Shown in pieces: positions 1 to 15,606 of a stretch of DNA of 21,703 nt (the first letter of the stretch is position 1; every line of letters starts with the position of its first letter). The notes under the pieces are model-generated. The model saw only the letters and a program-made list of their open reading frames with translations. It was not told the origin of the DNA and searched no databases. Made by a program: the position numbers and the translations under genes. The stretch is from a virus, in IMG/VR virus record IMGVR_UViG_3300000116_000288, positions 1-21,703 of that record, one strand, 5' to 3'.

Positions 1-35
1 GAAAGGCACTTGCACTCAAGAAGTGGGACTGTTAA
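1..35 (+). CDS. C-terminal end of an upstream gene (partial)
   Basis: Reading from base 3 gives ten codons (KALALKKWDC) and a TAA stop at 33-35. The last A of this stop is the first base of the ATG of the next gene, a TAATG overlap. The same kind of coupled junction occurs elsewhere in the window, for example at 20105. Too little is present to identify the product. Its value is mainly that it supports the start chosen for the next gene. Confidence 0.4.
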   Translation, partial: KALALKKWDC

Positions 36-1240
36 TGAAATCATTTGGTATGTATTTAAGTGAATCTAAGAATCTTCACATGGAACACATTGAAGATTCT
101 GTGTTCAATGAAGGCGCAAAGGGCGTCTCCGATGCAGTAAACTTTCTGAAGTCTGTCGTGGACATGCTTCGGGGAAACTCCAAGAGCGGAGTGAATGTTA
201 CTGTAAAGTGGGACGGTGCGCCTGCAATCTTCTGTGGTAAGGATCCAGAGAACGGAAAGTTCTTTGTTGCTACCAAGAGTCTATTCAACAAGACACCAAA
301 GGTGAACTATACACACGATGACATTCGTGTAAACCACTCAGGTGGACTTGCAGACAGACTTCACGTTGCATTGAACCATCTTCCTAAACTTGGGTTCGAT
401 GGAATCATTCAAGGTGACATGATGTTCATGAACGATGACTTGGGCACAGAAACCATCAATGGTGAACCGCACATTACGTTTACCCCCAATACTATCACGT
501 ATGCTGTACCCAAAGATTCTGATCTTGCAAAGAGAATCGAACGAGCAAGAATTGGTATTGTGTTTCATACAAAGTATACTGGTAAAAGTATTACAGATTT
601 AAATGCATCGTTCGGTGTTAGTGTCAGTGGATTTAAAAATACACCCGATGTGTGGTTCGACGATGCGTACCTGAAGGATGTTTCGGGTTCTGCAACACTC
701 ACCAACAAAGAAGTTGCGAAAGTCGATCAACTAATCAAGAAAATCAATACACTGTTGGTTGCTAATCGAAGTTTCCTGAACCAATTGAACAAAAATAACT
801 CGATCATTGACGAAATTAAGATCTACATCAACGCAAATGTTCGACAAGGCGTTTCTACCGGAAATATAAGGGGTTTTGTCGCTTACATGGACAAGAAATT
901 GCAGTCCCAAGTCGATAAATTGAAGTCTGAAGCAGGAAAGAAGCGAAAACAAGAGCAAAAAGACAAAATTATGTCCTTTATAGCACAGAATGGTGCAAAA
1001 ATCGACAAGGCATTCAAACTTCATGCACTTCTGGGCGAAGCAAAGATCGTATTGGTTCGCAAATTCGAAAAAATCAAATCAATCGGTACTTTCATCAAGA
1101 GTGGCGACGGTTTTGAGGTTACTGCACCAGAAGGATATGTTGCAATCGACAGATATGGCACAAAAGCACTTAAATTAGTAGACAGACTCGAATTTTCACG
1201 ACAAAACTTTACTGCTGCAAAAAACTGGGTAAAAGGTTAA
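35..1240 (+). CDS. KxDG nucleotidyltransferase-like phage protein (ligase-fold candidate)
   Basis: A 401-residue protein that I believe belongs to a family found in T4-like marine phages (DUF6267, from memory). What is visible: K58-W-D-G61 matches motif I (KxDG, the adenylated lysine) of ATP-dependent ligases and capping enzymes. IIQGDMMF near 124-131 resembles motif III, GIVFHTKYTG near 174-183 could be motif IIIa, and EGYVAI at 366-371 followed by KALKLV at 377-382 resembles motifs IV and V. Between IIIa and IV lies an unusually long, Lys-rich, probably helical insertion (about 225-345). The N terminus MKSFGMYLSE resembles the T4 capsid-targeting sequence. The ATG at 35 is chosen over the GTG at 23 because it overlaps the preceding stop (TAATG) and gives this N terminus. 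Catalytic activity and substrate are inference; it could be a degenerate or structural relative. Confidence 0.7.
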   Translation: MKSFGMYLSESKNLHMEHIEDSVFNEGAKGVSDAVNFLKSVVDMLRGNSKSGVNVTVKWDGAPAIFCGKDPENGKFFVATKSLFNKTPKVNYTHDDIRVNHSGGLADRLHVALNHLPKLGFDGIIQGDMMFMNDDLGTETINGEPHITFTPNTITYAVPKDSDLAKRIERARIGIVFHTKYTGKSITDLNASFGVSVSGFKNTPDVWFDDAYLKDVSGSATLTNKEVAKVDQLIKKINTLLVANRSFLNQLNKNNSIIDEIKIYINANVRQGVSTGNIRGFVAYMDKKLQSQVDKLKSEAGKKRKQEQKDKIMSFIAQNGAKIDKAFKLHALLGEAKIVLVRKFEKIKSIGTFIKSGDGFEVTAPEGYVAIDRYGTKALKLVDRLEFSRQNFTAAKNWVKG

Positions 1241-1287
1241 TTCGGCATACATAGTACAGTAATCAATTTCTATTCAGGAGAGAAATA

Positions 1288-1467
1288 ATGGCAACTAGAG
1301 AAGAAGTACGAAAAACAGACAACAGCAAACTCGGTAGAGCAGTCCTTAACAGCAGATCAAGCATCATGCGAGGTCTTCGAGGTAAGGTAGACGTTGTAGC
1401 CGAAACTAAAAAATTAGAAAAGAAGTCTGAAAAGAAGTCTGAAAAGAAGTCTAAAAAAAAGGACTGA
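1288..1467 (+). CDS. Small basic protein with EKKS repeats
   Basis: A 59-residue reading frame preceded by a strong ribosome binding site (AGGAGAG, about 5 bases before the ATG at 1288). It ends 3 bases before the next gene. The C-terminal third is almost only Lys, Glu and Ser and contains three perfect copies of EKKS, ending KKKD. The N-terminal part (MATREEVRKTDNSKLGRAV) is also basic. No family is recognised. A small, very basic protein in a late phage block could be a DNA-binding or internal head protein, but that is inference. Its reality rests on the binding site, the fit between neighbours and in-frame repeats. Confidence 0.7.
   Translation: MATREEVRKTDNSKLGRAVLNSRSSIMRGLRGKVDVVAETKKLEKKSEKKSEKKSKKKD
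1417..1452 (+). repeat. Three tandem 12-bp repeats
   Basis: Three perfect head-to-tail copies of gaaaagaagtct, at 1417-1428, 1429-1440 and 1441-1452. They are in frame and encode EKKS x3 in the basic protein. Copy number could change by slippage without breaking the frame. Confidence 0.9.
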
Positions 1468-1470
1468 TAT

Positions 1471-2091
1471 ATGATTGAAATTGGAAATATAAAATTCCTA
1501 GAAGAACAAACCACCACGATGAGTATGGGTCCTGTTGGCAGGGAAGAAGAAGAAAATGCTATTCCCTTCAACATGAGACAATATTCAAAATCTGGTGCTA
1601 ATAGTTTTTTTGCTCAGGATGCAACTGGTAAGGGTCGGGGTGTTCGTACACAAGGATATGATACACGACGACCAAGTGATCGAGGAGACTTCGGAGAACC
1701 CGACGATCGTCCGGAAGATCGTCCTTGGAATCTTGATGGTTTCAATTTAGATGATGTGGATACTTATCCTGTAACTATTCCAGATTTTACGGTTTGGTGG
1801 GAAGAATATTATATGGCCAATTTTGGAGACATCTTTAGATCAATGGCATATCTCTCAGGAACAAATAGTATCACTGGTCTCAGTGGAAAATTCGGACTCG
1901 GTATTAATACCGGAAACCCCGAGGCTGATCTTGAAGCATTTCTGAACCTGATTTATATGGTGAACTTTTTCCCTCCGATACTTGATGATCGAGGTAACGT
2001 AATTGGTGGGGGTACATGTCTAGAATGCTTACCTGACGGTGGTGGTATACCAGGCGGAATTGATGGTGGTGGTATTGGTGTTGCTGGATAA
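1471..2091 (+). CDS. Gly-rich hypothetical protein with LEEQT N-terminal motif
   Basis: A 206-residue protein of no recognised family. The start MIEIGNIKFLEEQTTT contains the sequence L-E-E-Q-T, which recurs in neighbouring genes (IREQT, IEEQT) and resembles a prohead-protease site. Residues 60-90 are rich in Asp, Arg and Pro. The middle (about 100-170) is richer in aromatics (VWWEEYYMANF) and may fold. The C terminus is a Gly tail (GGGIPGGIDGGGIG) preceded by a CLEC pair. There is no convincing ribosome binding site, but the start follows the previous stop by 3 bases, so coupling is likely. The composition is similar to the protein at 4431-5228. A virion or head-internal role is inference. 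Confidence 0.75.
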   Translation: MIEIGNIKFLEEQTTTMSMGPVGREEEENAIPFNMRQYSKSGANSFFAQDATGKGRGVRTQGYDTRRPSDRGDFGEPDDRPEDRPWNLDGFNLDDVDTYPVTIPDFTVWWEEYYMANFGDIFRSMAYLSGTNSITGLSGKFGLGINTGNPEADLEAFLNLIYMVNFFPPILDDRGNVIGGGTCLECLPDGGGIPGGIDGGGIGVAG

Positions 2092-2120
2092 CCCCACTGC
2101 AACGTCTTAGTTTTTAGTTT

Positions 2121-2128
2121 TATAAATA
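2121..2128 (+). promoter_or_regulatory. T4-type late promoter (TATAAATA)
   Basis: An exact match to the T4 late-promoter -10 box TATAAATA in a non-coding gap, 36 bases before the ATG of the small membrane protein gene. In T4 this box is read by RNA polymerase carrying the phage sigma factor gp55, with gp33 and the sliding clamp. It probably drives the 44-residue gene and the multidomain gene after it. The sequence match is direct; late timing is inferred from T4. Confidence 0.7.
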
Positions 2129-2163
2129 GTATTGTTCTTTAATAAGATATTAGGAGATTAACA

Positions 2164-2298
2164 ATGGATTTAGACTTAACAACATCACAAGTTCTTGGAA
2201 CTGTTTTTTATACGATTGTAGTTTTTGGTCTTGGCGCTCTTTCGGGTAAGAAAATTTGGTACTGGGTACGCAAATTCTTCCCGTGGAATAAAGACTAA
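2164..2298 (+). CDS. Small single-helix membrane protein
   Basis: A 44-residue reading frame with a good ribosome binding site (TAGGAG, 7 bases before the ATG) and a late-promoter box just upstream. Residues about 8-27 (QVLGTVFYTIVVFGLGALSG) form one hydrophobic helix. It is followed by a basic, aromatic tail (KKIWYWVRKFFPWNKD), which predicts the C terminus in the cytoplasm. The family is not recognised. Small single-helix proteins from late phage regions include lysis regulators and pinholin-like proteins, but nothing here decides the function. Confidence 0.7.
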   Translation: MDLDLTTSQVLGTVFYTIVVFGLGALSGKKIWYWVRKFFPWNKD

Positions 2299-2398
2299 AT
2301 CCGTTAATCTCTTTATGACTTAAAAGGAGAGTTGGCCGCCCCGGTGTGAAGGTAATCCTTACCAAGAAAGGGTGCGTGATCCAATCTCAATAAGTAAA
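2299..2398. other. Intergenic leader with GC-rich patch
   Basis: A 100-base gap before the multidomain gene. It contains AAAGGAGAG (about 2320-2330), which looks like a ribosome binding site but has no usable start after it, then a patch much richer in G and C than its surroundings (ggccgccccgg, about 2334-2345), then a small possible hairpin GGTAA-TCC-TTACC. No RNA gene is recognised. Confidence 0.35.
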
Positions 2399-4441
2399 AT
2401 GAAATCATACCGAAAAATACAAGCAAACATTCGGGAACAGACTGAAGGTAAGTCTGTGGTGTTTACTTTCGGCAGGTTTCAGCCTCCCACATCGGGGCAC
2501 CAACTTCTCATTAATACAGTTATAAGAGAAGCGAAAAAACGGAATGCAGAACATAGGATTTACCCTAGTCAGTCACAGGATAAAAAACAAAATCCCCTGA
2601 CACATAAGGATAAAGTACTATTTATGCGAAAAATGTTTTCAGGAGCAAATATTGTTGATGATAAATCGGCAAAAACTCCTTTTCAGGTACTAGACATCCT
2701 AAGCAAACAAGGATATACCAAAGTTTACATGGTAGTCGGTGGTGATCGAGTTTCTGAATTCAGGAATCGAATGAAGAAATATACCACCGACTTTGATGTG
2801 TTTGATGTTTTATCAGCAGGTGAACGGGATCCAGATGCAGAAGGCGTTGTGGGGATGTCGGGATCTAAAATGAGAAAAGCAGCACTCGATGATGAATTTG
2901 AAAAGTTCATGAATGGAGTCCCCGCAAAGGTTCCCAAGAGAGTTGCACTTAAATTGTTCAAGTCTATTCGAAAGGGAATGGGACTCAAGGAAGAGTATGC
3001 TTCATTTGGCGAACAAACATTTAACGTAAGACTTGCAGACACAGACGAAACCAGAGAAAGAGGACTGATGGATGTACAGTCTATGTCCAATGAAGATGGC
3101 ATGTTATTCGTGTTCGACGAAGAAGATCATCATGGTATCTGGATGAAAAACACACACATTCCTCTGGACGTTGTTTGGATCAACGAAAGCGGAATAATTG
3201 TTGATATTGCTACCCTCGATCCACACGACTTAAATACAAGGATACCTAATCAACCAGCCAAATATGTTCTTGAAGTGAACGCAGGATCATTTACTGGAAA
3301 AATAGGGGACAATATTGGTTCGGTTCCCCTAGATGAATCTATTCAACTGGATGAACTCTCAAAGGAAGCCAGAAGAAAAATGGCGAGATCCGCGAGAAGA
3401 ACCGCAAAGCGCCGTGCTATGAAACGAAAAATTAAAGCACGACGAATGAAGGGCGGAGAAGATCTAAAGAAGAAAGCACGAAAAGTAGCACTGGGTGGAT
3501 TTAAGAAAAAGATGCTCAAGGGTAGAAGTTGGACTTCTCTTGGACACTCAGAAAAAGAAGCAGTAGAGAAGAGACTGAAAAAGAAGTATTCTCCTGCTAG
3601 GATTGCTAAAGTAGCACAGAAACTTCTACCGGGAATCAAGAAAAGCGAAAGAGAAAGAATTGCTCGTGTTAAAGGGAATGTAAATGAAGATTTTCGTTTT
3701 CTTACGGAACCCGACATTCTTGACAGACTCGTCGGTCAACTCAAAGCAAAGAATCCTTCATGGTCGGATTCAAAGGTATATGCAGTCGCTACTGCATCTC
3801 TTCAGAAAAGAGGAGTTCTCAAAAAGGGTTCGCAGAAACTTACCGGGAAGGGTAAAAAGCGAAACTCTATGAGTGCAGAGGATCGAGCAAAGGATCGTGC
3901 TGCAAAATATTCTGGTAAATCACCAAGTGATTATAAGTACAGCAGCAAGACGAACCGTGCAACTCTAAAGAAGAAAAACAAAAATGAAGAGTTCGAGTCT
4001 TTTGTTTCTGAGTGCTGGGACACCCATGTACAAAGAGGTATGAAGAAAAAGGGTGGCAAGATGGTTCCTAACTGCGTACCCAAGAACAACGAAGAGAGAG
4101 ACTACAGAAAAGAATACGACAACTACCAAGGCAAGCAGGATCAAATTGACAAAAGAAGCAGCCGAAACAAAGCAAGAAGAAAACTAGAGTCGCAAGGTAG
4201 AGTTCGTATGGGTGACGGAAAGGATGTCGATCACAAAGATCGAAATCCACTAAATAATGGTGATAAGAACCTAAGAGTTAAATCTAAGAATTCTAATCGT
4301 AGTTTCTCACGAAAGAACGAAAGTAAAGTTTCACCTCTAGAAGATGGAACCAACAGAGCAAGAGAGTATCACCAACTCATGACTCCCGGCCAGGCTTGTG
4401 GAGTTAAGAGGTTTAAAAAGAGGTTCAAGGATGTCCGATAG
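2399..4441 (+). CDS. Multidomain protein: cytidylyltransferase-like + DUF192 + basic linkers + HNH
   Basis: A 680-residue mosaic. Residues 1-16 (MKSYRKIQANIREQTE) look like a T4-type capsid-targeting peptide with I-R-E-Q. Residues 20-195 are a cytidylyltransferase/NMNAT-like domain: GRFQPPTSGH at 25-34 (HxGH variant) and SGSKMR at 154-159. A linker with F-G-E-Q-T (203-207) leads to a DUF192 domain (about 206-308: ERGLM, GMLFVFD, GIWMKNTHIPLDVVWI). Residues 320-430 are very basic. Residues 431-485 carry a short helical module (WSDSKVYAVATASLQKRG). SECWDTHVQRGMKKKGGKMV begins near 537. An HNH-type motif (DHKDRNPLNN...NLRV) lies at 611-627. The ATG at 2399 is preferred over the GTG at 2372 because of the peptide, although neither has a clear ribosome binding site. 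Marine T4-like phages carry related genes annotated cytidylyltransferase. Packaging and processing in the head are inference. Confidence 0.8.
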   Translation: MKSYRKIQANIREQTEGKSVVFTFGRFQPPTSGHQLLINTVIREAKKRNAEHRIYPSQSQDKKQNPLTHKDKVLFMRKMFSGANIVDDKSAKTPFQVLDILSKQGYTKVYMVVGGDRVSEFRNRMKKYTTDFDVFDVLSAGERDPDAEGVVGMSGSKMRKAALDDEFEKFMNGVPAKVPKRVALKLFKSIRKGMGLKEEYASFGEQTFNVRLADTDETRERGLMDVQSMSNEDGMLFVFDEEDHHGIWMKNTHIPLDVVWINESGIIVDIATLDPHDLNTRIPNQPAKYVLEVNAGSFTGKIGDNIGSVPLDESIQLDELSKEARRKMARSARRTAKRRAMKRKIKARRMKGGEDLKKKARKVALGGFKKKMLKGRSWTSLGHSEKEAVEKRLKKKYSPARIAKVAQKLLPGIKKSERERIARVKGNVNEDFRFLTEPDILDRLVGQLKAKNPSWSDSKVYAVATASLQKRGVLKKGSQKLTGKGKKRNSMSAEDRAKDRAAKYSGKSPSDYKYSSKTNRATLKKKNKNEEFESFVSECWDTHVQRGMKKKGGKMVPNCVPKNNEERDYRKEYDNYQGKQDQIDKRSSRNKARRKLESQGRVRMGDGKDVDHKDRNPLNNGDKNLRVKSKNSNRSFSRKNESKVSPLEDGTNRAREYHQLMTPGQACGVKRFKKRFKDVR

Positions 4442-5228
4442 ATTAAATAAAATTGAAAATGTTCTTACTAGAGCAGATGTGGTTCTTTTTAATATTGAAG
4501 AACAAACAATGGATCCTAGACCTATTGATATGGGTGTTGAAGGTATAGGAATGACAACTCCTCCCGGAGTAAATCCCGGTTCAATAAGCACTCATGGTTA
4601 TTCCTACCCTTGGTGGTTACTTCCCCCTAATCCAGGCAATCACCCAGATCATCCCATGTATGGTATTTGGCTAAGTATGCCATCCGCATTTAGAAGTATT
4701 CTTAACTTTGATAATTTCCTTTCACTCTTGAGATTTATAATCGCACCACACATACCAAATACAATTTTCAATAGAATTCCCGGTCTGAGACGTTTTTTAA
4801 ATAGTTTCATGGGAACACAGGCACAAAACGTACTGAGAGATTTGTTGAGATCGTGGATGCTTGATAACCTAAATCTTCCTCAAGAGATTTTACAAAATAT
4901 ATATCCAGGCATATTTGATCCGCTTGTTAAACCCGGTACTCCCGGTATTAATATTCCCGGTGGAATAAAACCAATCGGAGGAGGTGGAGTAATCCCCCCA
5001 ACTGGTGGTGGTTTTATATCAAATTTAGCAGATATAATCTATGAGATCGTTCCTAATCTGATTACAGGACCAATTAGTATTCCGATTGGTGAACAAATGT
5101 CCTCTCTTGATCGAATGAGGGAAAAGCACCGAGATGAAAACAAAAAACTTCGAACAAAGCACGAACGAGAGATCGATGCTGCACAGAGACGAGAAAGAAC
5201 TCGTCGGAGAACTCAGCGACAAGGCTGA
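4431..5228 (+). CDS. Gly/Pro-rich hypothetical protein with IEEQT motif and basic coiled-coil tail
   Basis: A 265-residue protein of no recognised family. The ATG at 4431 overlaps the previous stop by 11 bases and has AAAGAGG a few bases upstream; an earlier GTG at 4398 lies deeper inside the previous gene and is less likely. N-terminal residues about 18-28 (VVLFNIEEQTM) carry the same I/L-x-E-Q-T signature as neighbouring proteins. Then come a Pro/Gly/Trp-rich stretch (PWWLLPPNPGNH), a helical middle (about 75-155), a Pro/Gly-rich spacer (GINIPGGIKPIGGGGVIPP) and a strongly charged C-terminal helix rich in Arg, Lys and Glu. The arrangement is like the 206-residue protein at 1471-2091, so they may be distant paralogues. 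A structural or head-internal role is inference. Confidence 0.75.
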   Translation: MSDRLNKIENVLTRADVVLFNIEEQTMDPRPIDMGVEGIGMTTPPGVNPGSISTHGYSYPWWLLPPNPGNHPDHPMYGIWLSMPSAFRSILNFDNFLSLLRFIIAPHIPNTIFNRIPGLRRFLNSFMGTQAQNVLRDLLRSWMLDNLNLPQEILQNIYPGIFDPLVKPGTPGINIPGGIKPIGGGGVIPPTGGGFISNLADIIYEIVPNLITGPISIPIGEQMSSLDRMREKHRDENKKLRTKHEREIDAAQRRERTRRRTQRQG

Positions 5229-5264
5229 ATTTATACATACATATGATAAAGGAGATTTAATAAA

Positions 5265-5591
5265 ATGAGTGAACCAGAAAGCAACCCCGTGTCAAGCGGA
5301 CAAGGAAACTTTAGTCCAGAAGGTCCGTTTACAGATTCTAGCCCTGCAAACCAATCTTTAGTAAATGACATTGAAAGCATTACAAGCAGTCAACCAGTAA
5401 CACTTCCAAATCATCTTTTAAAGTCAGCAAAAGCAGCAGGTGAACTTGCATCTAATGCAAAGACATTAGAAGATAAACAGAACATCTATAAAAATTATCT
5501 TTCAAAATCAAATGCGGGAAATCAATCAACCACCAAAAGTCAGGTGAAGGACTGGGAAAATGCCGCAGAATTCTTTAGGAACAAAAAATGA
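5265..5591 (+). CDS. Hypothetical phage protein, Ser/Asn-rich
   Basis: A 108-residue hydrophilic protein with a strong ribosome binding site (AAAGGAG, about 10 bases before the ATG). The N-terminal half is rich in Ser, Asn, Pro and Gly (SEPESNPVSSGQGNFSPEG), looks disordered and has no Cys. The C-terminal half is predicted helical and ends KDWENAAEFFRNKK. The stop overlaps the next start (ATGA at 5588-5591), so the two are probably co-translated. No family is recognised. Confidence 0.75.
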   Translation: MSEPESNPVSSGQGNFSPEGPFTDSSPANQSLVNDIESITSSQPVTLPNHLLKSAKAAGELASNAKTLEDKQNIYKNYLSKSNAGNQSTTKSQVKDWENAAEFFRNKK

Positions 5592-5989
5592 AAAAATTCA
5601 GAGACATTAGAGAAAACCCCGAAGTCGGTGGATATGGTCACGGTAGATATCAGGTCGATAAATCGAACCCTGAAACAATTGCTAACATCACACAGGCAAT
5701 TAATCACGAACTCAAAAAGGGCTACTTAAGTCCCAAGAACGCTGTAGACAACCTTCGGACTAAACTAAACTTTGTCGGTTTTGATTTTGATCTCAAAGAT
5801 CTACCTGAAAGTGGTTCTGTTTCATTCCCACTAAAGAAAGCAACTGAATTGTTTGGTAGAGGTATGGAAATTGACAAGTTTGATGTTGACTTCAACAATC
5901 AAAGTGACATCTCTACTGGTATGACTCTCAACATAAACATCTCACAAGATGAAGATGGTATGTACAAGTTAACCGGAAAGATCACCTAA
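5588..5989 (+). CDS. Conserved-type phage hypothetical protein (MKKFRDIRE N terminus)
   Basis: A 133-residue protein coupled to the previous gene by an ATGA overlap. It begins MKKFRDIRENPE, another short basic-hydrophobic peptide with I-R-E that resembles a T4 capsid-targeting sequence. Residues 30-60 are helical (ETIANITQAINHELKKGYLS). The C-terminal part is beta-rich and acidic (KFDVDFNNQSDISTGMTLNINISQDEDGMYKLTG). I think similar proteins occur in other T4-like phages but cannot name a family. No catalytic motif is seen. Confidence 0.75.
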   Translation: MKKFRDIRENPEVGGYGHGRYQVDKSNPETIANITQAINHELKKGYLSPKNAVDNLRTKLNFVGFDFDLKDLPESGSVSFPLKKATELFGRGMEIDKFDVDFNNQSDISTGMTLNINISQDEDGMYKLTGKIT

Positions 5990-6006
5990 GTAGAAAATTA
6001 TATATC

Positions 6007-6405
6007 ATGGAAATCTGTATTATGCAACTGAACGAGCGATTAAACGATAACACATACATGATGTACGCAATGAAGTATTATGACAATCCTCAATGCGTTG
6101 GTATGGATGAGTTTCAAGAGGATTTAAATAGAATAAAATACATTAAGCGTCTCTTTCGCAAGTATAAAAACTCTGATATACTTCGGGAGAGACTTATTCT
6201 TAATCATATAATTATATTCTTTAATGTGTTTGGTGTAGAAGCAGGAACCAGAATTCTCTTCTATAAGATAGAAGAAGAATTACATGGACTACTCAAGACT
6301 TTCTTAGTTTATTTAAACTATCTTCCAGAAGAGGATATACCAGAAGCCAAATTAATAGAGATCCCTCTAGATCAATTTGTTATAAATAAACTAAGGGAGT
6401 TATGA
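6007..6405 (+). CDS. Conserved marine T4-like phage protein of unknown function
   Basis: A 132-residue, mostly helical protein. Its core (YAMKYYDNPQC, DLNRIKYIKRLFRKY, RLILNHIIIFFNVFGVEAGTRILFYKIEEE, LKTFLVYLNYLPE) matches a small family that I recall from many marine T4-like phages (possibly DUF7207; the number is from memory). The function is unknown. No good ribosome binding site precedes the ATG at 6007. The second ATG at 6022 would give MQLNERLND, closer to the family's usual short N terminus, but also lacks one. The next gene follows after one base. Confidence 0.8.
   Translation: MEICIMQLNERLNDNTYMMYAMKYYDNPQCVGMDEFQEDLNRIKYIKRLFRKYKNSDILRERLILNHIIIFFNVFGVEAGTRILFYKIEEELHGLLKTFLVYLNYLPEEDIPEAKLIEIPLDQFVINKLREL
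6381..6388 (+). promoter_or_regulatory. Possible late promoter box (TATAAATA)
   Basis: An exact TATAAATA inside the last codons of the preceding gene (V-I-N-K), 19 bases before the ATG at 6407. A transcript from it would begin within or just before the ribosome binding site AAGGGAG, leaving a very short leader. It may be chance in AT-rich coding sequence. Confidence 0.35.
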
Positions 6406-6406
6406 A

Positions 6407-7249
6407 ATGGAACAGAAAAGTCAATTAAACGAACAAGTCGATATGCTTGTTGCCTATAAATTCATCAAAATCCTTACCACAGACTTCAAGGATACTGATG
6501 CATTTAGATTGGGTGTGATTGACAAAGACGGCAACATCCTCAAGAAAAGAAAAGACTTGAGAGGTGATGAGAGAACGTCATACACTATCTTTCATACTCT
6601 AATATGGAATCTAAAAAAGTTAATGATGAAAGTGCCTGGTTTAAAGAGTAAACTTGGTTCATACGCCAGTGCATTGTTTCTATTAAAGGAGCAATACAAC
6701 AAAGAAAACAATAGAGGGGGAGAACTCCTCGCAGAACGGATCCTAGAGTCTCTGAAAGACAAATTTCCCGATTCAGACGTTCTTTTTGAGTGTGTTTTCG
6801 AAACTCCCATAGAATCCGGCGTTTACATCGCTACACAGGAAATTGTTACTCCTTCTTTTGAAACAATAAACGAAGGTGAAGTAATTATAATAGGAAACAC
6901 AAAACAAGCACTGACAGAAATGTCATCTGTTCCTTTGTATACTGCGGTGCATCTTGATTCGGGAGAAGAAGTAATAGTAAGCAAATCCTCCATTGAAAAG
7001 ATTCACGAAAACATAAACACTGCTCCTGAAATTATAGCAAACATGGCAGTTTTTGACGTTGATTCTGTTCCGCACGACATGATACACGGAAGAAAGAAAT
7101 TCGAGAAATGGAACACTGATAAGTTTGGTTCTCTTGATGATAACATGAAGAAAGCCATTCGAAGATATTCATACAGAAACAAGGGAAGAGAAATTGCTCT
7201 GCGAGTGAAAGACGGAACAATCACACCCTTCAAGAAGGCTTACAAATGA
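6407..7249 (+). CDS. Conserved marine T4-like phage protein, possible head/core-associated
   Basis: A 280-residue protein with a ribosome binding site AAGGGAG. It starts MEQKSQLNEQVDM, with L-N-E-Q near the N terminus. The first 90 residues (LVAYKFIKILTTDFKDTDAFRLGVIDKDG, TIFHTLIWNLKKLM, LGSYASALFLLKE; runs of family-like sequence) match a protein that I recall as conserved in marine T4-like phages without known function. The C-terminal part has FDVDSVPHDMIHGRKKFEKW and a basic tail ending FKKAYK. The last codon/stop overlaps the next start (ATGATG at 7246-7251). Confidence in the family is moderate and comes from memory of the conserved blocks; a head-associated role is inference. Confidence 0.75.
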   Translation: MEQKSQLNEQVDMLVAYKFIKILTTDFKDTDAFRLGVIDKDGNILKKRKDLRGDERTSYTIFHTLIWNLKKLMMKVPGLKSKLGSYASALFLLKEQYNKENNRGGELLAERILESLKDKFPDSDVLFECVFETPIESGVYIATQEIVTPSFETINEGEVIIIGNTKQALTEMSSVPLYTAVHLDSGEEVIVSKSSIEKIHENINTAPEIIANMAVFDVDSVPHDMIHGRKKFEKWNTDKFGSLDDNMKKAIRRYSYRNKGREIALRVKDGTITPFKKAYK

Positions 7250-7689
7250 TGTCATTCTTAACACCTGAATTTTTGACTCTGATCGGAAGCAGTTTAACTG
7301 GCTTCCTTTTCAAATACATGGCAGAAAAAAGACAGGATCAAAAAGAAATATTTGAGCGAATGATTGGTAGAAGTAAGAGACAAGATGAAAGTCAAGATCT
7401 TGCTGTTGCTAGAGTAGGAGTAGAGGCAGGTAAAACTGTTCGGAGACTTATTGTGGTTACCATATTATTTGGTACTATAATGGCTCCGTTTATTCTTCCT
7501 TTCTTTGGTATACCGACAGTGGTAGAAATTACTGAAACCGAAGGTACGTTCTTTGGGTTTGGTGGTGGACAGAGAGTCACCTTCCATGAAATTTATGGAT
7601 ATCTCTTCACAGAAGAAAACAGACAAGTTCTTCTGGCTATCGTGGGTTTCTACTTCGGACAAGCAGTAGGAAAGAGTTCTAGACGATGA
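7246..7689 (+). CDS. Three-helix membrane protein, holin candidate
   Basis: A 147-residue inner-membrane protein with three predicted helices: about 5-23 (LTPEFLTLIGSSLTGFLF), 67-86 (RLIVVTILFGTIMAPFILPF) and 126-142 (RQVLLAIVGFYFGQAVG). A charged, probably cytoplasmic, helical segment (24-66) lies between the first two, and the protein ends KSSRR. Size, helix number and the position directly before a small lipoprotein gene (ATGA overlap) fit a three-helix holin, the kind seen in the GTA/phage 3TM holin family, which would release or activate a murein hydrolase. That function is inference; a virion or superinfection-exclusion membrane protein is an alternative. The start is either of the two adjacent ATGs overlapping the previous stop. 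Confidence 0.7.
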   Translation: MMSFLTPEFLTLIGSSLTGFLFKYMAEKRQDQKEIFERMIGRSKRQDESQDLAVARVGVEAGKTVRRLIVVTILFGTIMAPFILPFFGIPTVVEITETEGTFFGFGGGQRVTFHEIYGYLFTEENRQVLLAIVGFYFGQAVGKSSRR

Positions 7690-7937
7690 GTCGTTTTCTA
7701 ATTATATCCTTGCTATTTCTCGCCTCTTGTTCTGGTTCTGTGCGGGTAAACAAAACTGTCCCGAAACACGGTGCTGTACCGGAACTTAATCCAGTAAGAG
7801 CAGATGGGATTTCAGTAGATCGTTTTTCTTCGACGGCGTTTTTAGTTTTTTATACTCCGATAATATTGGGTTCTGCATATTTGACATATAGAACCTTCAA
7901 GAAAACCAAAGAATCAAAACAACAGACTACTGCGTAG
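7686..7937 (+). CDS. Small lipoprotein with C-terminal membrane helix (spanin-like candidate)
   Basis: An 83-residue protein. The N terminus is a lipoprotein signal (MSRFLIISLLFLASCSGS) with lipobox L12-A-S-C15; Ser at +2 permits outer-membrane sorting by the Lol rule. After a 35-residue hydrophilic segment comes a second membrane helix (about 50-68, TAFLVFYTPIILGSAYLTY) and a basic tail (RTFKKTKESKQQ), which predicts the C terminus in the cytoplasm. A lipidated N terminus plus a C-terminal membrane helix is the layout of unimolecular spanins such as T1 gp11. This one is much shorter, and 35 residues may not cross the periplasm. It is coupled to the holin-like gene by ATGA. It overlaps the convergent RuvC-like gene by 11 bases. 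Confidence 0.75.
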   Translation: MSRFLIISLLFLASCSGSVRVNKTVPKHGAVPELNPVRADGISVDRFSSTAFLVFYTPIILGSAYLTYRTFKKTKESKQQTTA

Positions 7938-8517
7938 ATCCGTTTATCCTGTCGTAAAACATCTTACAAATATAGTAAGCATCAACAATATCAGAAACGG
8001 GATTTGACACCTCTTTTTTAAGGGGTGTTATTGACTTATGTAGATTGATAAAGGTTTCCTTGACAAAGGAATCATGCATTGCTGTCTTGTCTGCGTTACC
8101 TTTACCTGTGGCAAACTTCTTGATGGAAGTTGGTGCAATTATATCAACGGGAATTGACTCTTGGAAAAGTTTATATTTAAGGACACCTGTGTTTTCTGCA
8201 ATATGAAAAACTTTTCCTTTGGATCCGAAGGAATAACCTTCAAGAGCCACTTGATCGCATTTGTACTTCTTAATGATTTCTATAGCCCAATCAGAAATGC
8301 TGTTATATCTGGAAGAATCACATTCTACCTCAGAGAACTTAGTCCCGTGAATATTTTTCATAAACGTAGTGGCATACTTTTTAATATCTGTTAGGTAATA
8401 GAACGAACAATTCTTAAATGAAAATTCAGTGTTCTTCTCACCAGTATATGAATCTATATCATGAAAGATACAGATTGCTGGTCCTCGTAAACTATAATCG
8501 ATACCTGCAATTGACAT
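7927..8517 (-). CDS. RuvC-like Holliday junction resolvase / RNase H-fold nuclease
   Basis: A 196-residue protein with the RuvC arrangement of acidic residues: D7 in AGIDYSL, E93 in VALEGYSFG, and D176/D179 in PVSDIVDAYYICK. ATGKGNADKTAM at 136-147 aligns with the RuvC segment before the last acidic pair. RuvC-type enzymes cut four-way DNA junctions symmetrically. T4 uses the unrelated gp49 for resolving replicative DNA before packaging, so this could fill that role here. It has a good ribosome binding site (AAAGGAG). It is the only minus-strand gene inside the plus-strand block and overlaps the convergent lipoprotein gene by 11 bases with no visible terminator. Substrate preference is inference. 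Confidence 0.85.
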   Translation of the reverse strand: MSIAGIDYSLRGPAICIFHDIDSYTGEKNTEFSFKNCSFYYLTDIKKYATTFMKNIHGTKFSEVECDSSRYNSISDWAIEIIKKYKCDQVALEGYSFGSKGKVFHIAENTGVLKYKLFQESIPVDIIAPTSIKKFATGKGNADKTAMHDSFVKETFINLHKSITPLKKEVSNPVSDIVDAYYICKMFYDRINGSTQ

Positions 8518-8556
8518 AATAAAACTCCTTTAATCTTTAGTATGTAGTATGTTTAT

Positions 8557-8586
8557 AGTATAAATATATACATGAATCGATTCCAA
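8557..8586 (-). promoter_or_regulatory. Possible sigma70 promoter for the RuvC-like gene
   Basis: On the minus strand TTGGAA (8586-8581), an 18-base spacer and TATACT (8562-8557) lie about 40 bases upstream of the RuvC-like start. The -10 is good and the -35 is a 4 of 6 match. The -10 region shares bases with the plus-strand TATAAATA box, so the two promoters would compete. Confidence 0.4.
8559..8566 (+). promoter_or_regulatory. T4-type late promoter, apparently leaderless
   Basis: Exact TATAAATA in the 54-base gap between divergent genes, only 5 bases before the ATG at 8572. With T4 geometry the transcript would begin at or within a base or two of that ATG, so the mRNA would have no leader. 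No ribosome binding site exists upstream of the gene, which fits. Confidence 0.55.
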
Positions 8587-9168
8587 AGAAATTTTAAACC
8601 ACAAATTTTCAAACGACTGAATGTAGAAGGTATGTCATTTTTAATGTCTCCACCAAAAGACGAAAGTGATAAGACTGTCGTGGAATTGGAACTTCTGGAA
8701 AATGTGAGTATGAGATTGAAAGATGAAGATCTGTCTTCTATCAGAAAATACAACAATAATGTTCTGGAAAATTATTACCACATATTAGAACAATTTTCAT
8801 TGGAAGTAGACAAAGAAGAAGTAGAGGAACTATTAACCGACATTCGAATAATAGTTGAAAATGAAAAAACTAAACATAACAGATCTCGTCCATCTACTAT
8901 AGCAAACAAGCAGGGGTTTGAAATAAAAGAAACTGTAAGTTCAAATCCCACACCATCATACCCATCAAAACATTCAGCAGAGTCTATGTTTTTATCTTTA
9001 TACTTCGCCGAACAGTTTCCCATATATAAAGATGTGATGATGGAAATGGCAAACAAAATTGCAAATTCACGATTGCTATCTTCCAACAACTATCCTACAG
9101 ACAACCTTGCAGGACAAACCATAGCACATGTTTTGTTTGGTAGATTCAAAGAAAGTAAAAAACAATGA
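8572..9168 (+). CDS. Hypothetical phage protein
   Basis: A 198-residue protein of no recognised family. The N terminus is basic (MNRFQRNFKPQIFKRL). Residues 35-105 are acidic and helical (VVELELLENVSMRLKDEDLS, then EVDKEEVEELLTDIRIIVE), followed by a Ser/Pro-rich linker (about 120-140) and a helical C-terminal domain (MFLSLYFAEQFPIYKDVMMEMANKI, in two parts). There is no ribosome binding site before the ATG, but a late-promoter box ends 5 bases upstream, suggesting leaderless translation. Later ATGs (8632, 8644) would remove the basic segment and have no better signal. The stop overlaps the next start (ATGA). Confidence 0.7.
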   Translation: MNRFQRNFKPQIFKRLNVEGMSFLMSPPKDESDKTVVELELLENVSMRLKDEDLSSIRKYNNNVLENYYHILEQFSLEVDKEEVEELLTDIRIIVENEKTKHNRSRPSTIANKQGFEIKETVSSNPTPSYPSKHSAESMFLSLYFAEQFPIYKDVMMEMANKIANSRLLSSNNYPTDNLAGQTIAHVLFGRFKESKKQ

Positions 9169-9614
9169 GAAGATCAAAATATAACGGTGTACTTGGACAA
9201 GATTCAACTGAACGCAGATACGGAAAAGGACTGACATATGATCCTAAATATCGACCTGCATCTTCACAGTCAGTAGACAACTACGGTAGTGTGGATTCTG
9301 GTGATATGGGTTCTTTCATGGGAGAGTCTTGGTTCCTCGGTGAGCAGTTTTCTGGTGGAGTGAGTCCCAACATGATCTTTGACATTATGAAGGGTTTGGT
9401 GGACTCAGAAGACAACTCAGTGGATCCTGAGACGGGAATCAGAAGCAAAGGACTTGGATCCTATGGTGGTATACCAGTCACTATTGGTGGTGTGGATTAT
9501 ATGCTAACAAAAGGCGGCCTTGTACCTACAGGACAACCAACTCCCATATCTGGCTTAAGACGAAATGTAGACGATGACGGTATTCCTGATCCCAAAAACC
9601 CAACAGGGTATTAA
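9165..9614 (+). CDS. Gly/Ser-rich hypothetical protein, possible virion-associated
   Basis: A 149-residue protein coupled to the previous gene by ATGA. It is rich in Gly, Ser, Asp and Tyr, begins with a basic segment (MRRSKYNGV), and contains SWFLGEQFSGG (about 56-66), with L-G-E-Q as in the neighbouring proteins. Gly-rich beta-like stretches (GSYGGIPVTIGGVDYMLTKGG) and an acidic/Pro tail (DDDGIPDPKNPTGY) follow. The composition resembles small structural or internal virion proteins, but no family is recognised. It is the last gene before the strong terminator. Confidence 0.7.
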   Translation: MRRSKYNGVLGQDSTERRYGKGLTYDPKYRPASSQSVDNYGSVDSGDMGSFMGESWFLGEQFSGGVSPNMIFDIMKGLVDSEDNSVDPETGIRSKGLGSYGGIPVTIGGVDYMLTKGGLVPTGQPTPISGLRRNVDDDGIPDPKNPTGY

Positions 9615-9617
9615 TAA

Positions 9618-9645
9618 AAAACCCTCTGGATAACCAGAGGGTTTT
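9618..9645. terminator. Bidirectional hairpin terminator
   Basis: A perfect 12-bp stem, AAAACCCTCTGG / CCAGAGGGTTTT, with a 4-base loop (ATAA) in the 61-base gap between convergent genes. The A-run on one side and T-run on the other make it an intrinsic terminator on both strands, separating the plus-strand array from the minus-strand block. Confidence 0.92.
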
Positions 9646-9675
9646 CTGTGTTCGAGTCTTTCGAAATATTTCCGA

Positions 9676-9885
9676 TTAAGAACCGACTGCGGTAGTTGCA
9701 GCATCCCAAACAGACTTAACTGCTCCTGCTGCCCACATTACACCGCTCCAAGCAAAAGGCAAAAGTGCTAGAGTCACCAGCATCGATCGACAAACTCCTA
9801 CCTTAGCGAGAGCCTTTGTTACAACATCATTATCACAATTTCCGAGGACAGGACACTCTTTTTGAGTGCAAACTTTAGTAGCCAT
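9676..9885 (-). CDS. Small Cys-containing membrane protein
   Basis: A 69-residue protein with ribosome binding site AAAAGGAG. The N-terminal part has four Cys (C6, C11, C17, C32) in MATKVCTQKECPVLGNCDND, which could bind a metal or form disulfides. Residues about 35-55 (MLVTLALLPFAWSGVMWAAG) form a membrane helix, and the Ala-rich end may be an amphipathic helix. The function is not recognised. It has its own consensus promoter and a structured leader, and it ends 31 bases before the bidirectional terminator, so it can be transcribed as a short, strong early message. A host-takeover or membrane-modifying role is possible but unproven. Confidence 0.75.
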   Translation of the reverse strand: MATKVCTQKECPVLGNCDNDVVTKALAKVGVCRSMLVTLALLPFAWSGVMWAAGAVKSVWDAATTAVGS

Positions 9886-9972
9886 AACTTTTCTCCTTTT
9901 AATAAGTTAACCCGGCTATGGGGTGGTGTGTATTACACCAATCAAAAATGTCTACAATAGACACGTTCATAA
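9886..9972 (-). other. Structured 5' leader of the small membrane protein gene
   Basis: About 87 bases lie between the inferred transcript start (near 9972) and the ATG. On the minus strand it first forms a hairpin TGTCTA-TTG-TAGACA (9963-9949) followed directly by five T, like a small terminator or attenuator. A second hairpin, TGGTGT/ACACCA (9940-9924), follows, then the AAAAGGAG site. A 23-codon reading frame also starts at 9970 without a ribosome binding site and is not called. Confidence 0.45.
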
Positions 9973-9991
9973 GAATTAATTATACACCAAT
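9934..9991. repeat. Direct repeat of TACACCAAT, possible operator
   Basis: The 9-bp sequence TACACCAAT (plus strand) occurs at 9934-9942 and again at 9983-9991. The second copy overlaps the -10/spacer of the promoter and the first lies in the second leader hairpin. Two copies about 49 bases apart around a promoter could be regulator sites; chance is also possible. Confidence 0.35.
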
Positions 9992-10006
9992 AATCATCGA
10001 TGTCAA
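9979..10006 (-). promoter_or_regulatory. Consensus sigma70 promoter (TTGACA-16-TATAAT)
   Basis: On the minus strand a perfect TTGACA (10006-10001), a 16-base spacer and a perfect TATAAT (9984-9979) lie just after the nrdJ stop. The transcript would start near 9972 and encode the small membrane protein. Such a match to host consensus is typical of phage early promoters. Confidence 0.85.
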
Positions 10007-10012
10007 GTATTT

Positions 10013-11941
10013 TTAGTTAGTTAAGTCAACAATTTCACAGGAATTTCCAGAACATGCCATTGTCTGCGATCCTGCTGTGTTGTCTTCTTTTTCATAATTT
10101 GAAAGTTCCGTCCAATCAACACCAACCGGCATCAATGCGGAGAGATCATTATATTCTTCCTCTGTGCAATCTTGGTAAGGCGCTTGACGATAACTGTGAT
10201 CGCTGTGTGGTAAGAAAGACACACCGGACACTTCGTCAAAGTGATCATATACCCATGCACCAACTTTCATCCATTCGTGTTCCTTTACAGTAACAGTGAT
10301 GCTTGGTTTATGTTCGCACCAATGCTTCTGATAAAGTAACCAATGTTCTAGTTGCTCGATAGCAGTCATGTCGGTGCGAACAACGCAACCATCTGGTGCC
10401 TTTACTGGGAAGGAGAATACCATTGTGTGTTCAGGTTTCATGACATCTGGTTCGCAGGGGAAACCTTTTTCTTTCATGAATATACACAGGGGATCCTTGA
10501 TGTCTGCACGAACAGTTCTGATGTAGTGAGGATTGTGTCGTGCGTGAATACCAGATGCAGCATCTACTAATTGGGACACAGTTCCGCTTGGTTTGACGCA
10601 AGTAATAGCAGCAGATTGATTAATTTTTAGTTTCTTTGCAAGTTGCTTGTTAGTTTCAATTGCAACATCTCTAAGATTTTGCAGGGTTTCCACCAGAAGT
10701 TTTTCGCCCTTCTTTCCATTCATCAAATCATTATCCATAATTCCTGTAAGGGAAACACCTAAAAGTCTTTCTTCTTCGCAGTTGTTTTTCCATTCGCTGG
10801 AAAGATAACGGAAGTTGGTGAGGGTAGATTGCCACGTACCAAGAATGGTTGCAAGTCTTACCTTTTCCTTTAGAGTCTTGATTGTGTCTTCTTTGCGAAC
10901 AACTACTTCTGTGAGGTTGCAAAATTGTCTATCCCTGAGAAGAATTTCTGAACAGGGGTTGCAGCCAAAGTCATAATTTGGATCTCGACGATCACCAAGT
11001 TTTTCAATTGTTTTCTTTGCAGCACTCCGATTGAATATACCACGCTCACCGGATTTACTCTTGTATAGAGAAACCCATTCGTCCATGAACGTACCGATCT
11101 CAGGCTTCTCCTTGTATGCCACAGAGTTGTTTGACAATGCTCTCTGTGGGTTTTCGTGCCACCACTGTCCTGTTTTTGCTTCACGCATCCTCTCGTCAGT
11201 AAGCGAAGAGAGTGAGATAAGGGCGCTTCGACGTACTCCCCCAACCACGACAATCTCAGCAATCTTACAAATGATATCATGACATTCAATGGAAGTGAGT
11301 TTTCTCCCACTAGCCTTCTTGTATGTGTCTACTGTAAACCTAAACAAATCATCCAGTGGTTTTGGTCCAGAAGAACGACCTCCGAAAGTTTTAAGTCTTT
11401 CTCCCGCAGGTCTAATCTTCGCAAGATCCCATTGTGGTACTTGTCCCCCAATGAGCAGAGAAGTAAGTTCTTTATACGCTTTCGCCCAACCAAGTTTACT
11501 GTCCTGCACAACAATGGTGGTATCAGTTGCTTCAAACTCTTCCGCGATGGTTGCAAGTTTGTCTAGGAAGTCTCTCTCGACACTAAACCCAACACCAGTT
11601 CCGCACATCAGAATATAAAGAATCTCATCAAAAGATCGGACTCTTCCTGCACTCACATAAGCACAATTATAACCTGCAACATGATCTCTCTTGAGTGCTT
11701 CACCAGCAGTCATTAATGCTCTCATTGAAGGCATAACATCAAGACTTACAATAGCACTTTGTAGTTCTTCTTTTTCTGTTTTTGAAACTTTATACTTTTG
11801 ATTTTCTTCTAGGTGATCTACAAAAAAATCAAAGTAACGGGAAACAGTTTCTTCCCAAGTTTCTCTTCTTGCCTTTTCGTCTGTCCATCTGGAATAACGG
11901 CTTAGATGAATAAAATCCTGAAACGGTGTTGGTAATGACAT
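10013..11941 (-). CDS. nrdJ: Adenosylcobalamin-dependent (class II) ribonucleotide reductase
   Basis: A 642-residue monomeric class II reductase of the Lactobacillus leichmannii RTPR type; it reduces ribonucleotides to deoxyribonucleotides using a thiyl radical made from coenzyme B12. Catalytic residues are present: C93 in GYNCAYV and C341 in FCNLTEV (the redox pair, matching C119/C419), N328/C330/E332 in CNPCSEI (matching N406/C408/E410), and a C-terminal relay pair C630/C635 in ACSGNSCEI (matching C731/C736). It is shorter than the 739-residue relative, and no intein is seen. Ribosome binding site TAGGAG. It lies 39 bases after thyX at the end of the replication operon and provides dNTPs. 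Dependence on host or environmental cobalamin follows. Confidence 0.93.
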   Translation of the reverse strand: MSLPTPFQDFIHLSRYSRWTDEKARRETWEETVSRYFDFFVDHLEENQKYKVSKTEKEELQSAIVSLDVMPSMRALMTAGEALKRDHVAGYNCAYVSAGRVRSFDEILYILMCGTGVGFSVERDFLDKLATIAEEFEATDTTIVVQDSKLGWAKAYKELTSLLIGGQVPQWDLAKIRPAGERLKTFGGRSSGPKPLDDLFRFTVDTYKKASGRKLTSIECHDIICKIAEIVVVGGVRRSALISLSSLTDERMREAKTGQWWHENPQRALSNNSVAYKEKPEIGTFMDEWVSLYKSKSGERGIFNRSAAKKTIEKLGDRRDPNYDFGCNPCSEILLRDRQFCNLTEVVVRKEDTIKTLKEKVRLATILGTWQSTLTNFRYLSSEWKNNCEEERLLGVSLTGIMDNDLMNGKKGEKLLVETLQNLRDVAIETNKQLAKKLKINQSAAITCVKPSGTVSQLVDAASGIHARHNPHYIRTVRADIKDPLCIFMKEKGFPCEPDVMKPEHTMVFSFPVKAPDGCVVRTDMTAIEQLEHWLLYQKHWCEHKPSITVTVKEHEWMKVGAWVYDHFDEVSGVSFLPHSDHSYRQAPYQDCTEEEYNDLSALMPVGVDWTELSNYEKEDNTAGSQTMACSGNSCEIVDLTN

Positions 11942-12694: not shown

Positions 12695-13743
12695 ACTTTT
12701 CTCCATGTTTGGAATCGAAGTTTTGCTTCTAGTCCACTAAACGTATTTTCATTTATCATTTTTTGAATCTTTCGGGTAGACATTCGATAAACCAAATCGT
12801 TTATATCTTTCTCCGAAATATTTTCTGGCCAGATACAAACCTGATTACCCATTCCAATTAATTTTTCTATGTAAGAGCAGATTTGTGGATTTCTTGGTTC
12901 GTTGTCTAATATGAATGTCATCGCACTATTTTTAAACCTTTTTGGTATAACATCCAAGGCTCCCGCTCCAACCATTGCAACGGAATTCTGTAAGAACATG
13001 CTATCGATAGGTCCTTCTACAACATAGATTCTTTTTGATGGATTTGCTCTCCACATCCCATACCAAAGTCGATCAATACTTTTATCGTGCTTCACTGTAA
13101 TATACTTTGCAGTGTATCTGGCATTACTCTCGTCTTTAAAATTAATTGATCTTCCTTGAACCGCAACAACATCCCCCTCTTTATTGAAGAATGGTATCAC
13201 AAGTCTTTCTTCTTTTCCTACCATTTGACGTGTTTCGGGATCTAACCTTTTCATGAAAGAACCAAAATCACTAGAATAGTATAGATACCTCCAGTGTTGT
13301 TTGGGGATTACTCTCATGTTCACAAACTTGACGGCATTATGCGTTTCAGGTAACTCAGTGATACATTCTATATGATTTAGAATTTTATCTTTAGTTTTAA
13401 ACTCTGGTTTCTTTTTTAGTTTCTTAAACATGTCGTTTTCTTTCAAAGGAGTTTTGTTTTTGTCTTTACCGGATTTCCATCTTTCGAGGGAATACTCTTT
13501 TGCTAACTGAGAGGAAACATGATTTAAAAAATTATATAGATTACAACTATGATTACAGTTGTGACATTTGTAAAAATATGAGTCTGCTTTTTGATAGAAA
13601 AACCCTCTTGCTTTGGATTTGTTTTTTTGTGAGTCACCACAGATTGGACACCTACAATTAGCAAGATTTGACTTTTTCCAGGCGAACCTCTCCAACATAG
13701 GAGAAACTCTATTTATATATGTTTGATCTATGTAGACACTCAT
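12691..13743 (-). CDS. 61: DNA primase, T4 gp61-like
   Basis: A 350-residue primase that makes RNA primers for lagging-strand synthesis with helicase gp41. The N-terminal zinc ribbon has C32/C35 in RCPICGD and C60/C63 in KCHNCN. The Toprim catalytic domain has E243-G-P-I-D247, D280-N-E and D313 in EKDIND. The ATG at 13743 follows the helicase stop by one base and is chosen over an upstream start at 13818 that would lie inside gp41. The order gp41-gp61 is the same as in T4. The stop overlaps the thyX start. Residues 85-125 form a Lys-rich linker between zinc and Toprim parts. Confidence 0.92.
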   Translation of the reverse strand: MSVYIDQTYINRVSPMLERFAWKKSNLANCRCPICGDSQKNKSKARGFFYQKADSYFYKCHNCNHSCNLYNFLNHVSSQLAKEYSLERWKSGKDKNKTPLKENDMFKKLKKKPEFKTKDKILNHIECITELPETHNAVKFVNMRVIPKQHWRYLYYSSDFGSFMKRLDPETRQMVGKEERLVIPFFNKEGDVVAVQGRSINFKDESNARYTAKYITVKHDKSIDRLWYGMWRANPSKRIYVVEGPIDSMFLQNSVAMVGAGALDVIPKRFKNSAMTFILDNEPRNPQICSYIEKLIGMGNQVCIWPENISEKDINDLVYRMSTRKIQKMINENTFSGLEAKLRFQTWRKV

Positions 13744-13744
13744 C

Positions 13745-15404: not shown

Positions 15405-15606
15405 TGTCCTTCTTATAGGGTAAAACTTGGTTTAGTTTTTCTTTTCGTTCCTTGCACTTGTCGCACTCTTTTATTTTACCACCGGAAAGCATTTTTATAA
15501 TTTTTGATATTGTGTCTCCTACTCCCTCTGATTTTTCTTTTTGATTCAGAGGCCATGTTGGTGGTGGGGGAGGTGTTTTGTTTTCATCATTCTTCGGTTT
15601 CGACAT
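15382..15606 (-). CDS. Small Pro-rich protein with CxxC motif
   Basis: A 74-residue protein with ribosome binding site GGAG 7 bases before its ATG; it overlaps the end of uvsX by 20 bases. The N terminus is disordered and Pro-rich ([17 protein letters not shown]). The middle is a short amphipathic helix ([15 protein letters not shown]). The C-terminal motif [18 protein letters not shown] has a single CxxC followed by basic residues; similar C-x-x-C-K-x-R-x-x-x-L-N endings occur in other small phage proteins that I recall. Two such proteins could share a zinc ion. The function is unknown; its place suggests a link to recombination or helicase loading. Confidence 0.75.

Follow-up and report, generated by a model that had tools for sequence, protein, structure and literature searches.

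The window analysed here is the whole 21,703-nucleotide stretch of IMG/VR virus record IMGVR_UViG_3300000116_000288 (positions 1 to 21,703), a 21.7-kb fragment of a marine T4-like phage whose relatives include Methylophilales phage Melnitz, Pelagibacter phage HTVC008M and the cyanophages. Its minus-strand genes are replication and nucleotide genes, and the plus-strand genes at 35-9614 include several whose products carry short motifs ending in hydrophobic-x-Glu. These motifs are very probably T4-type capsid-targeting peptides and prohead-protease sites, by which the tagged cargo would be packaged, cut and probably injected, and one of the tagged proteins, of 680 amino acids (aa), is probably a polyprotein. 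The motifs are enriched over chance, conserved in a near relative, placed at module boundaries and matched by the relative's gp23 site.

Cleavage, injection, function and the freeing of separate domains are inferred, in the following course of events. The 401-, 206-, 680-, 265- and 280-residue proteins would be made late, and a short N-terminal peptide ending in hydrophobic-x-Glu would recruit them into the prohead core. The gp21 homologue would cut after the Glu upon prohead completion, and the trimmed proteins would be retained in the head with the DNA and probably delivered on infection. Cuts at the domain borders of the 680-aa protein would free NMNAT-like cytidylyltransferase, DUF192, Lys/Arg-rich, PDIL and CW/HNH parts.

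Since gp21 and gp23 are both absent from the 21.7-kb window, the near relative IMG/VR contig 3300030060_004050 (118.5 kb; G001) was used as a stand-in for them. The DUF6267 proteins of the two are 91% identical. Gene starts in G001 are from a simple gene caller that matched the annotated start in 162 of 187 shared HTVC008M genes. Predicted cut positions are marked below by a slash.

N-terminal motifs of the late proteins

The initial annotation had described a recurring [LIF]xEQ(T) signature, mostly within the first 30 residues of the late plus-strand proteins, and all of the peptides it quoted are present in the genes named. N-terminal counts were made over the first 35 residues and compared with shuffles of the same N-termini. 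The [LIF]xEQ motif is found in 4 of the 13 late window genes (shuffle mean 0.30, with none of 500 shuffles reaching 4) and [LIF]xEQT in 3 of the 13, where 0.02 are expected; none of the 16 minus-strand window genes has [LIF]xEQ in this region. Over the whole of G001, 16 of 129 proteins carry the motif against 1.6-1.9 expected, and 11 of 115 do so when the window-like region is removed (2000 shuffles: mean 1.67, maximum 6). Tagged G001 proteins outside that region include MSTPFQKYLIEQ, MSDYSFKRMLQEQ, MKDYRTFLSEQ and MNLYEKYNLLEQ. The motif is above chance in both sequences.

The tagged proteins other than the 680-aa protein, and the sites predicted in them, are:

35-1240, plus strand: 401-aa DUF6267 protein, tag MKSFGMYLSE/S followed by a ligase-like nucleotidyltransferase domain (Pfam PF19782, E=3e-121)
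56-64, plus strand: predicted prohead-protease site LSE/S, residue 10 of the DUF6267 protein; LKE/S, LTE/T, ITE/A, LTE/Q etc. in homologues
1471-2091, plus strand: 206-aa protein, N-terminal KFLEE/QT; the G001 orthologue, MSDFGTKQFLYE/QMT, keeps the site and is otherwise diverged
1498-1506, plus strand: predicted site LEE/Q, residue 12 of the 206-aa protein
4431-5228, plus strand: 265-aa protein, N-terminal NIEE/QT and C-terminal IGE/Q followed by a basic tail; both sites kept in G001
4494-4502, plus strand: predicted site IEE/Q (IEE/QT), residue 24 of the 265-aa protein
5085-5093, plus strand: predicted site IGE/Q near the C terminus of the 265-aa protein, FGE/Q in G001; absent from the initial annotation
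6407-7249, plus strand: 280-aa protein, N-terminal QLNE/Q; QLNE/QVDML identical in G001
6425-6433, plus strand: predicted site LNE/Q, residue 9 of the 280-aa protein

In the window, a T4-style peptide of about 10 residues, like MKTYQEFIAE, is carried by the DUF6267 protein (MKSFGMYLSE/S), and the 206-, 680-, 265- and 280-aa proteins share the [LI]xE/Q end, not the full T4-type peptide. LxE/Q is kept in the G001 orthologues of the 206-, 265- and 280-aa proteins, with diverged flanks in the 206- and 265-aa pairs; both the IRE/QT and FGE/QT positions of the 680-aa protein keep a site before Q, and the 401-aa orthologue has LKE/S at the end of its tag. T4-type N-termini are retained across 32 distinct DUF6267 N-terminal peptides from IMG/VR homologues, with the pattern M-x-x-F-x-x-[YF]-[LI]-x-E-[SAGTQD]-K-N. 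It resembles MKTYQEFIAE, the tag of the T4 internal proteins, which was recovered in a T4 control.

The coat protein gp23 provides a further comparison. At the maturation position G001 gp23 reads LLENQEKALQE/QANNIVGGG..RRAMPNL, that is LQE/Q (QANNIVGGGMSPVVGSEGEIKGFDPILISLVRRAMPNL after the cut), where T4 gp23 has ...FLTE/AEIGG...; the G001 gp21 starts MKLITETTEDIKLIKEN. By analogy with T4, G001 gp23 would be cut at LQE/Q, and the LxE/Q of the tags therefore agrees with the probable gp23 maturation site of the relative, the comparison to which the initial annotation had pointed.

Shared N-termini could also arise by paralogy or from a common composition of protein starts, with no protease site involved. 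Several of the genes are adjacent and start MK-[SK]-[FY], and phage gene clusters often undergo local duplication. However, the tags precede proteins of unrelated kinds (ligase-like, NMNAT, Gly/Pro-rich, kinase, Cas9), the enrichment was measured against shuffles of the same N-termini, and the motif is also present in gp23 and at internal boundaries, making this explanation highly improbable.

In G001, sites near N termini are followed by Q more often than expected (17 of 104 against 22 of 428, P=0.0003), and no such enrichment was seen in HTVC008M, G002, S-CREM2 or T4. From these sequences, Q after the predicted cut is a clade-specific preference. [LIF]xEQ was rejected as a universal signal, being unenriched in HTVC008M, G002, G004, S-CREM2 and T4.

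Conservation did not extend to two of the peptides originally listed, and both were dropped as cut sites:

9165-9614, plus strand: 149-aa protein, LGEQ at residue 60; motif absent from the position-matched G001 gene and judged a chance match
5588-5989, plus strand: 133-aa protein, MKKFRDIREN (IRE/N, residue 9); the family keeps the MK-x-F start and the Glu varies (G001 MKRFKEIRDGN, HTVC008M MKSFKDFQNVNEK, Melnitz MKNFKNHIAEEV)

Many short Gly/Pro/Asp-rich proteins with an LxE/Q N-terminus are encoded in G001 at 5761-10908, 12901-14862 and 60486-66999, and a segment like NLNEQLQQAYEAG[RK]QxALNEQ is repeated in several of them. They resemble a large and rapidly changing repertoire of internal head proteins.

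A near copy of the gp23 maturation junction, which itself varies strongly between phages, was seen in another protein in four T4-like phages: G001 14862-16502, S-CREM2 gp160, S-SM1 SSM1_197 and T4 gene 61.1 (18966-19130). The T4 61.1 copy is MKTFKEFIKEDMVAGDSGGNPENISIGTTSGAV (gp23, FLTEAEIGGDHGYNATNIAAGQTSGAV), that of S-CREM2 gp160 is GATGFTGAAAPEGPVAGYDPLM and that of G001 is MKEQAVNAVGSGMSPVVGGEGEIKG. In T4, S-CREM2 and G001 the copy best matches the gp23 of the same phage, and gp160 is listed among the S-CREM2 virion proteins. In HTVC008M gp143 a junction copy was not significant (46 of 500 shuffles), and Melnitz was borderline. Such a copy may mimic the N-arm of the mature coat protein, for docking or for packaging.

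Module boundaries of the 680-aa protein

The 680-aa protein contains several modules, with predicted sites in front of them as follows:

2399-4441, plus strand: 680-aa multi-domain protein, proposed prohead-cleaved polyprotein (Pfam CTP_transf_like, DUF192, HNH_3), with modules rearranged in relatives
2429-2437, plus strand: predicted site IRE/QT, residue 13, just before the cytidylyltransferase/NMNAT-like module; identical in G001
2465-2779, plus strand: CTP_transf_like core of module 1, residues 23-127 (Pfam)
3005-3013, plus strand: predicted inter-domain site FGE/QT, residue 205, directly before DUF192; [FI]GE/Q in 4 of 4 homologues
3020-3295, plus strand: DUF192 module, residues 208-299 (Pfam E=2e-26)
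3347-3355, plus strand: predicted inter-domain site LDE/L before the Lys/Arg-rich module; LDE/S nearby at 3329-3337
3680-3709, plus strand: predicted site pair VNE/D and LTE/P before the PDIL module; site before the module in 7 of 7 homologues
4004-4012, plus strand: predicted site VSE/C before the CWDTHV...HNH module
4214-4297, plus strand: HNH core, residues 606-633 (PF13392, HNH_3, E=1.6e-4, just under the curated cut-off; PHROG HNH match)

FGEQT had been reported as one more example of the signature; the site is present and conserved, and is better read as an inter-domain polyprotein cut than as a targeting peptide. The sites LDE/L, LTE/P and VSE/C at the other module junctions had been missed, as had the C-terminal IGE/Q of the 265-aa protein.

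Eight modules, among them M1 (NMNAT), M2 (DUF192), M3 (basic), M5 (PDIL), M6 (GLGF) and M7 (CW/HNH), were searched for in about 11,700 open frames. The architectures found include M1 alone, M1-M7, M1-M7-M8, M1-M7-M3-M7 and M1-M2-M3-M5-M7, together with standalone M3, M6, M7 and M8; in HTVC008M the Lys/Arg-rich module has a gene of its own (gp142). In alignments with G001, an insert of about 110 aa lies between the VxE and LTE/P sites, and a second insert is found beside the site preceding the CW/HNH module. Modules that occur alone, fused, reordered or with inserts in relatives suggest a polyprotein, and the 680-aa protein is probably cut by the prohead protease into separate enzymes inside the prohead. 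No peptidase family was found in it by Pfam or PHROGs. A precedent for two cuts in one injected enzyme is T4 Alt, which gp21 cleaves after ITE-6 and LTE-619 (PMC5694885).

Hydrophobic-x-Glu is found no more than 14 residues from where the module starts in 46 of 63 NMNAT, 4 of 4 DUF192, 13 of 13 basic, 7 of 7 PDIL, 11 of 15 CW/HNH and 19 of 20 M8 copies, against a background of 0.23-0.30 at random positions, the copies being phylogenetically related and the counts therefore not independent trials. The N-terminal tags might be real and the internal sites nevertheless uncut, leaving one multi-domain protein in which LxE is an ordinary linker feature. In these proteins, 20-30% of 17-residue windows contain [LIVMF]xE by chance, the linkers are Glu-rich, and none of the four copies of the GLGF module has a site in front. 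However, a site precedes every M2, M3 and M5 copy examined, FGE/Q and IGE/Q retain the Q preferred in the clade, and the G001 inserts fall between or beside sites. In addition, the NMNAT module has the same site directly before the domain whether standalone (MFTYDEYLEE/AKSKPVVFT) or fused (NEEFLSE/AKGKSVAFT). An uncut protein is thus unlikely.

Virion proteins of relatives and known systems

Virions of S-CREM2 have been studied by mass spectrometry, and detection is given here as in Table 3 of PMC10665884. All 219 S-CREM2 genes were translated, and the first 30 residues of each product were searched for a strict pattern, [FYL]xxF[LIMF]xE. Seven proteins have it and six of these are listed as detected, the exception being gp71. 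The six are gp6 (SAM hydrolase, MKDFDSFLEE), gp12 (Cas9, ...LRFASFMAE), gp13 (MKDLHSFLTE), gp14 (kinase, KRFDAFLTE), gp136 (MQTFSMFFSE) and gp154 (cytidylyltransferase, MKNFSSFLTE). Of the non-structural proteins outside the structural region, 5 of the 6 with a tag were detected, against 10 of the 118 without one (P=7e-5, somewhat optimistic because the strict pattern was fixed after some of these N-termini had been seen). A weight matrix trained on DUF6267 N-termini, built without those of S-CREM2, gave an area under the curve of 0.68 (P=0.001) when applied to S-CREM2, a positive signal that is modest because most detected S-CREM2 unknowns sit among tail genes. S-CREM2 gp12 (7704-10313, minus strand), annotated as Cas9, has the T4-type site LRFASFMAE/A at residue 25, which together with its listing in virions suggests a packaged nuclease.

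The gp154 cytidylyltransferase is homologous to the 680-aa protein of the window. The S-SM1 cytidylyltransferase (T4-GC190), which starts MKKFSAFLNE/A, is reported from virions (PMC3037559), and S-SCSM1 virions are also reported to contain an NMNAT-like protein.

The tagged proteins could instead be scaffold or core components destroyed by the protease and not surviving cargo, as happens in T4, where gp21 reduces gp22, gp67 and gp68 to small peptides (PMC9958956); low complexity is seen in some of the 206/265-type proteins. However, DUF6267, NMNAT, DUF192 and HNH are conserved domains with enzyme-like folds, and homologues of the NMNAT protein are reported in mature virions, so that a scaffold role is quite improbable.

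Several points weigh against packaging and cleavage of the window proteins. The virion evidence comes entirely from relatives, not from this phage, and the S-CREM2 authors allow that enzymes of this kind may have contaminated CsCl preparations (PMC10665884); the S-CREM2 and S-SCSM1 authors are both undecided between packaging and contamination. The gp21/gp23 comparison rests on G001 and not on the window itself. N-terminal motif enrichment was not seen in HTVC008M or G002, [LIVMF]xE is a loose motif, and in one DUF6267 subclade (IMG/VR loci L106, L109, L118, L124-L162) FITK[DE]RN replaces LxE. The relatedness of the module copies and the site-less GLGF module, noted above, belong here too. The proposal in the initial annotation that these proteins are packaged in the prohead and trimmed is nevertheless well supported by homology for most of those named, through the DUF6267 tags, G001 gp23 and the reported mass spectrometry of homologues; 2 of its 8 examples are unconserved.

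T4 IPI, IPII, IPIII and Alt have a short N-terminal tag, MK-x-[FY]-x-x-[FY]-[LI]-x-E, cut after the Glu, as is predicted here. They move into the prohead core and remain in the head afterwards, and the same is proposed for the window proteins. The two gp21 cuts in Alt may be likened to the multiple sites of the 680-aa protein. In contrast to the T4 internal proteins, the window cargo is unrelated in sequence (ligase-like DUF6267, NMNAT-like, DUF192, HNH), Q is favoured after the cut, far more genes are tagged (16 with [LIF]xEQ in G001), and there is a multi-domain protein with sites at domain borders.

The NMNAT-like cytidylyltransferase of cyanophage virions (T4-GC190; S-SM1, S-SCSM1, S-CREM2) is a homologous module, and those of S-SM1 and S-CREM2 also have a T4-type N-terminus, but in the window the enzyme shares its chain with DUF192, basic and HNH modules. 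As far as the available text of these reports goes, a packaging signal is not proposed and contamination is allowed. Polyvalent proteins (Iyer and colleagues 2017, PMC5512222) likewise combine many enzymatic domains per chain and are thought to be co-delivered with DNA and proteolytically released. Their parts are released by embedded peptidase domains, whereas for the 680-aa protein, in which a search for an embedded peptidase found none, the head-maturation protease would act in trans at the sites it normally uses. Strictly speaking, the 680-aa protein is therefore not a polyvalent protein. In phiKZ and SPN3US heads, the prohead protease (gp175/gp245) extensively processes head and ejection proteins after Glu, but the motif is A-x-E in SPN3US and S-x-E in phiKZ, and processing is mainly removal of N-terminal propeptides, not release of separate enzymes.

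No paper tying a capsid targeting sequence to cyanophage or pelagiphage enzymes was found in a literature search that left most subscription journals outside its reach, which is weak evidence of novelty. Cyanophage virion proteomics has repeatedly found enzymes (NMNAT, kinases, SAM hydrolase, Cas9) that the authors could neither explain nor exclude as contamination, and a T4-type tag with a cut site would account for them. The tag enables sequence-based prediction of packaged, probably injected proteins in marine T4-like phages, mostly from hypothetical genes, and the polyprotein layout, if true, would be a simple route for phages to swap injected effectors. A wider generalization, put forward tentatively and at somewhat less than even chance, is that injected enzymes of marine T4-like phages are modular polyproteins, with modules swapped between prohead-protease sites and head maturation releasing an entry-ready mix (ligase-like, NMNAT-like, DUF192, HNH), and that a second class of head proteins copies the phage's own gp23 junction, perhaps as a docking peptide.

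The DUF6267 domain and neighbouring sequences

A structural model of the DUF6267 protein built from 22 sequences has a pLDDT (predicted local distance difference test) of 76, with residues 1-14 under 50. In comparison with known structures by VIA-align it comes closest to RNA/DNA ligases, the top rows being RNA ligases at Z about 7.3, a score too low to set the match apart from a common arrangement. Foldseek gave no significant match for the model, and a sequence search of the PDB found nothing. K58, D60, G61, E366, G367 and K380 are invariant in the 22 sequences, and K58-x-D60-G61, E366-G367 and K380 fit ligase motifs I (KxDG), IV (EG) and V (Lys), assigned by analogy. A ligase-like function is thus a reasonable guess.

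A 44-aa open frame at 2164-2298 (plus strand), between the 206-aa and 680-aa genes, ends in RKFFPWNKD, and its 41-aa counterpart in G001 has the same end; the frame probably encodes a small membrane protein. The plus strand has T4-type late promoter boxes, TATAAATA, at 2121, 6381 and 8559. There are 4 matches in total against 1.2 expected, and two lie closely upstream of the gene starts at 6407 and 8572.

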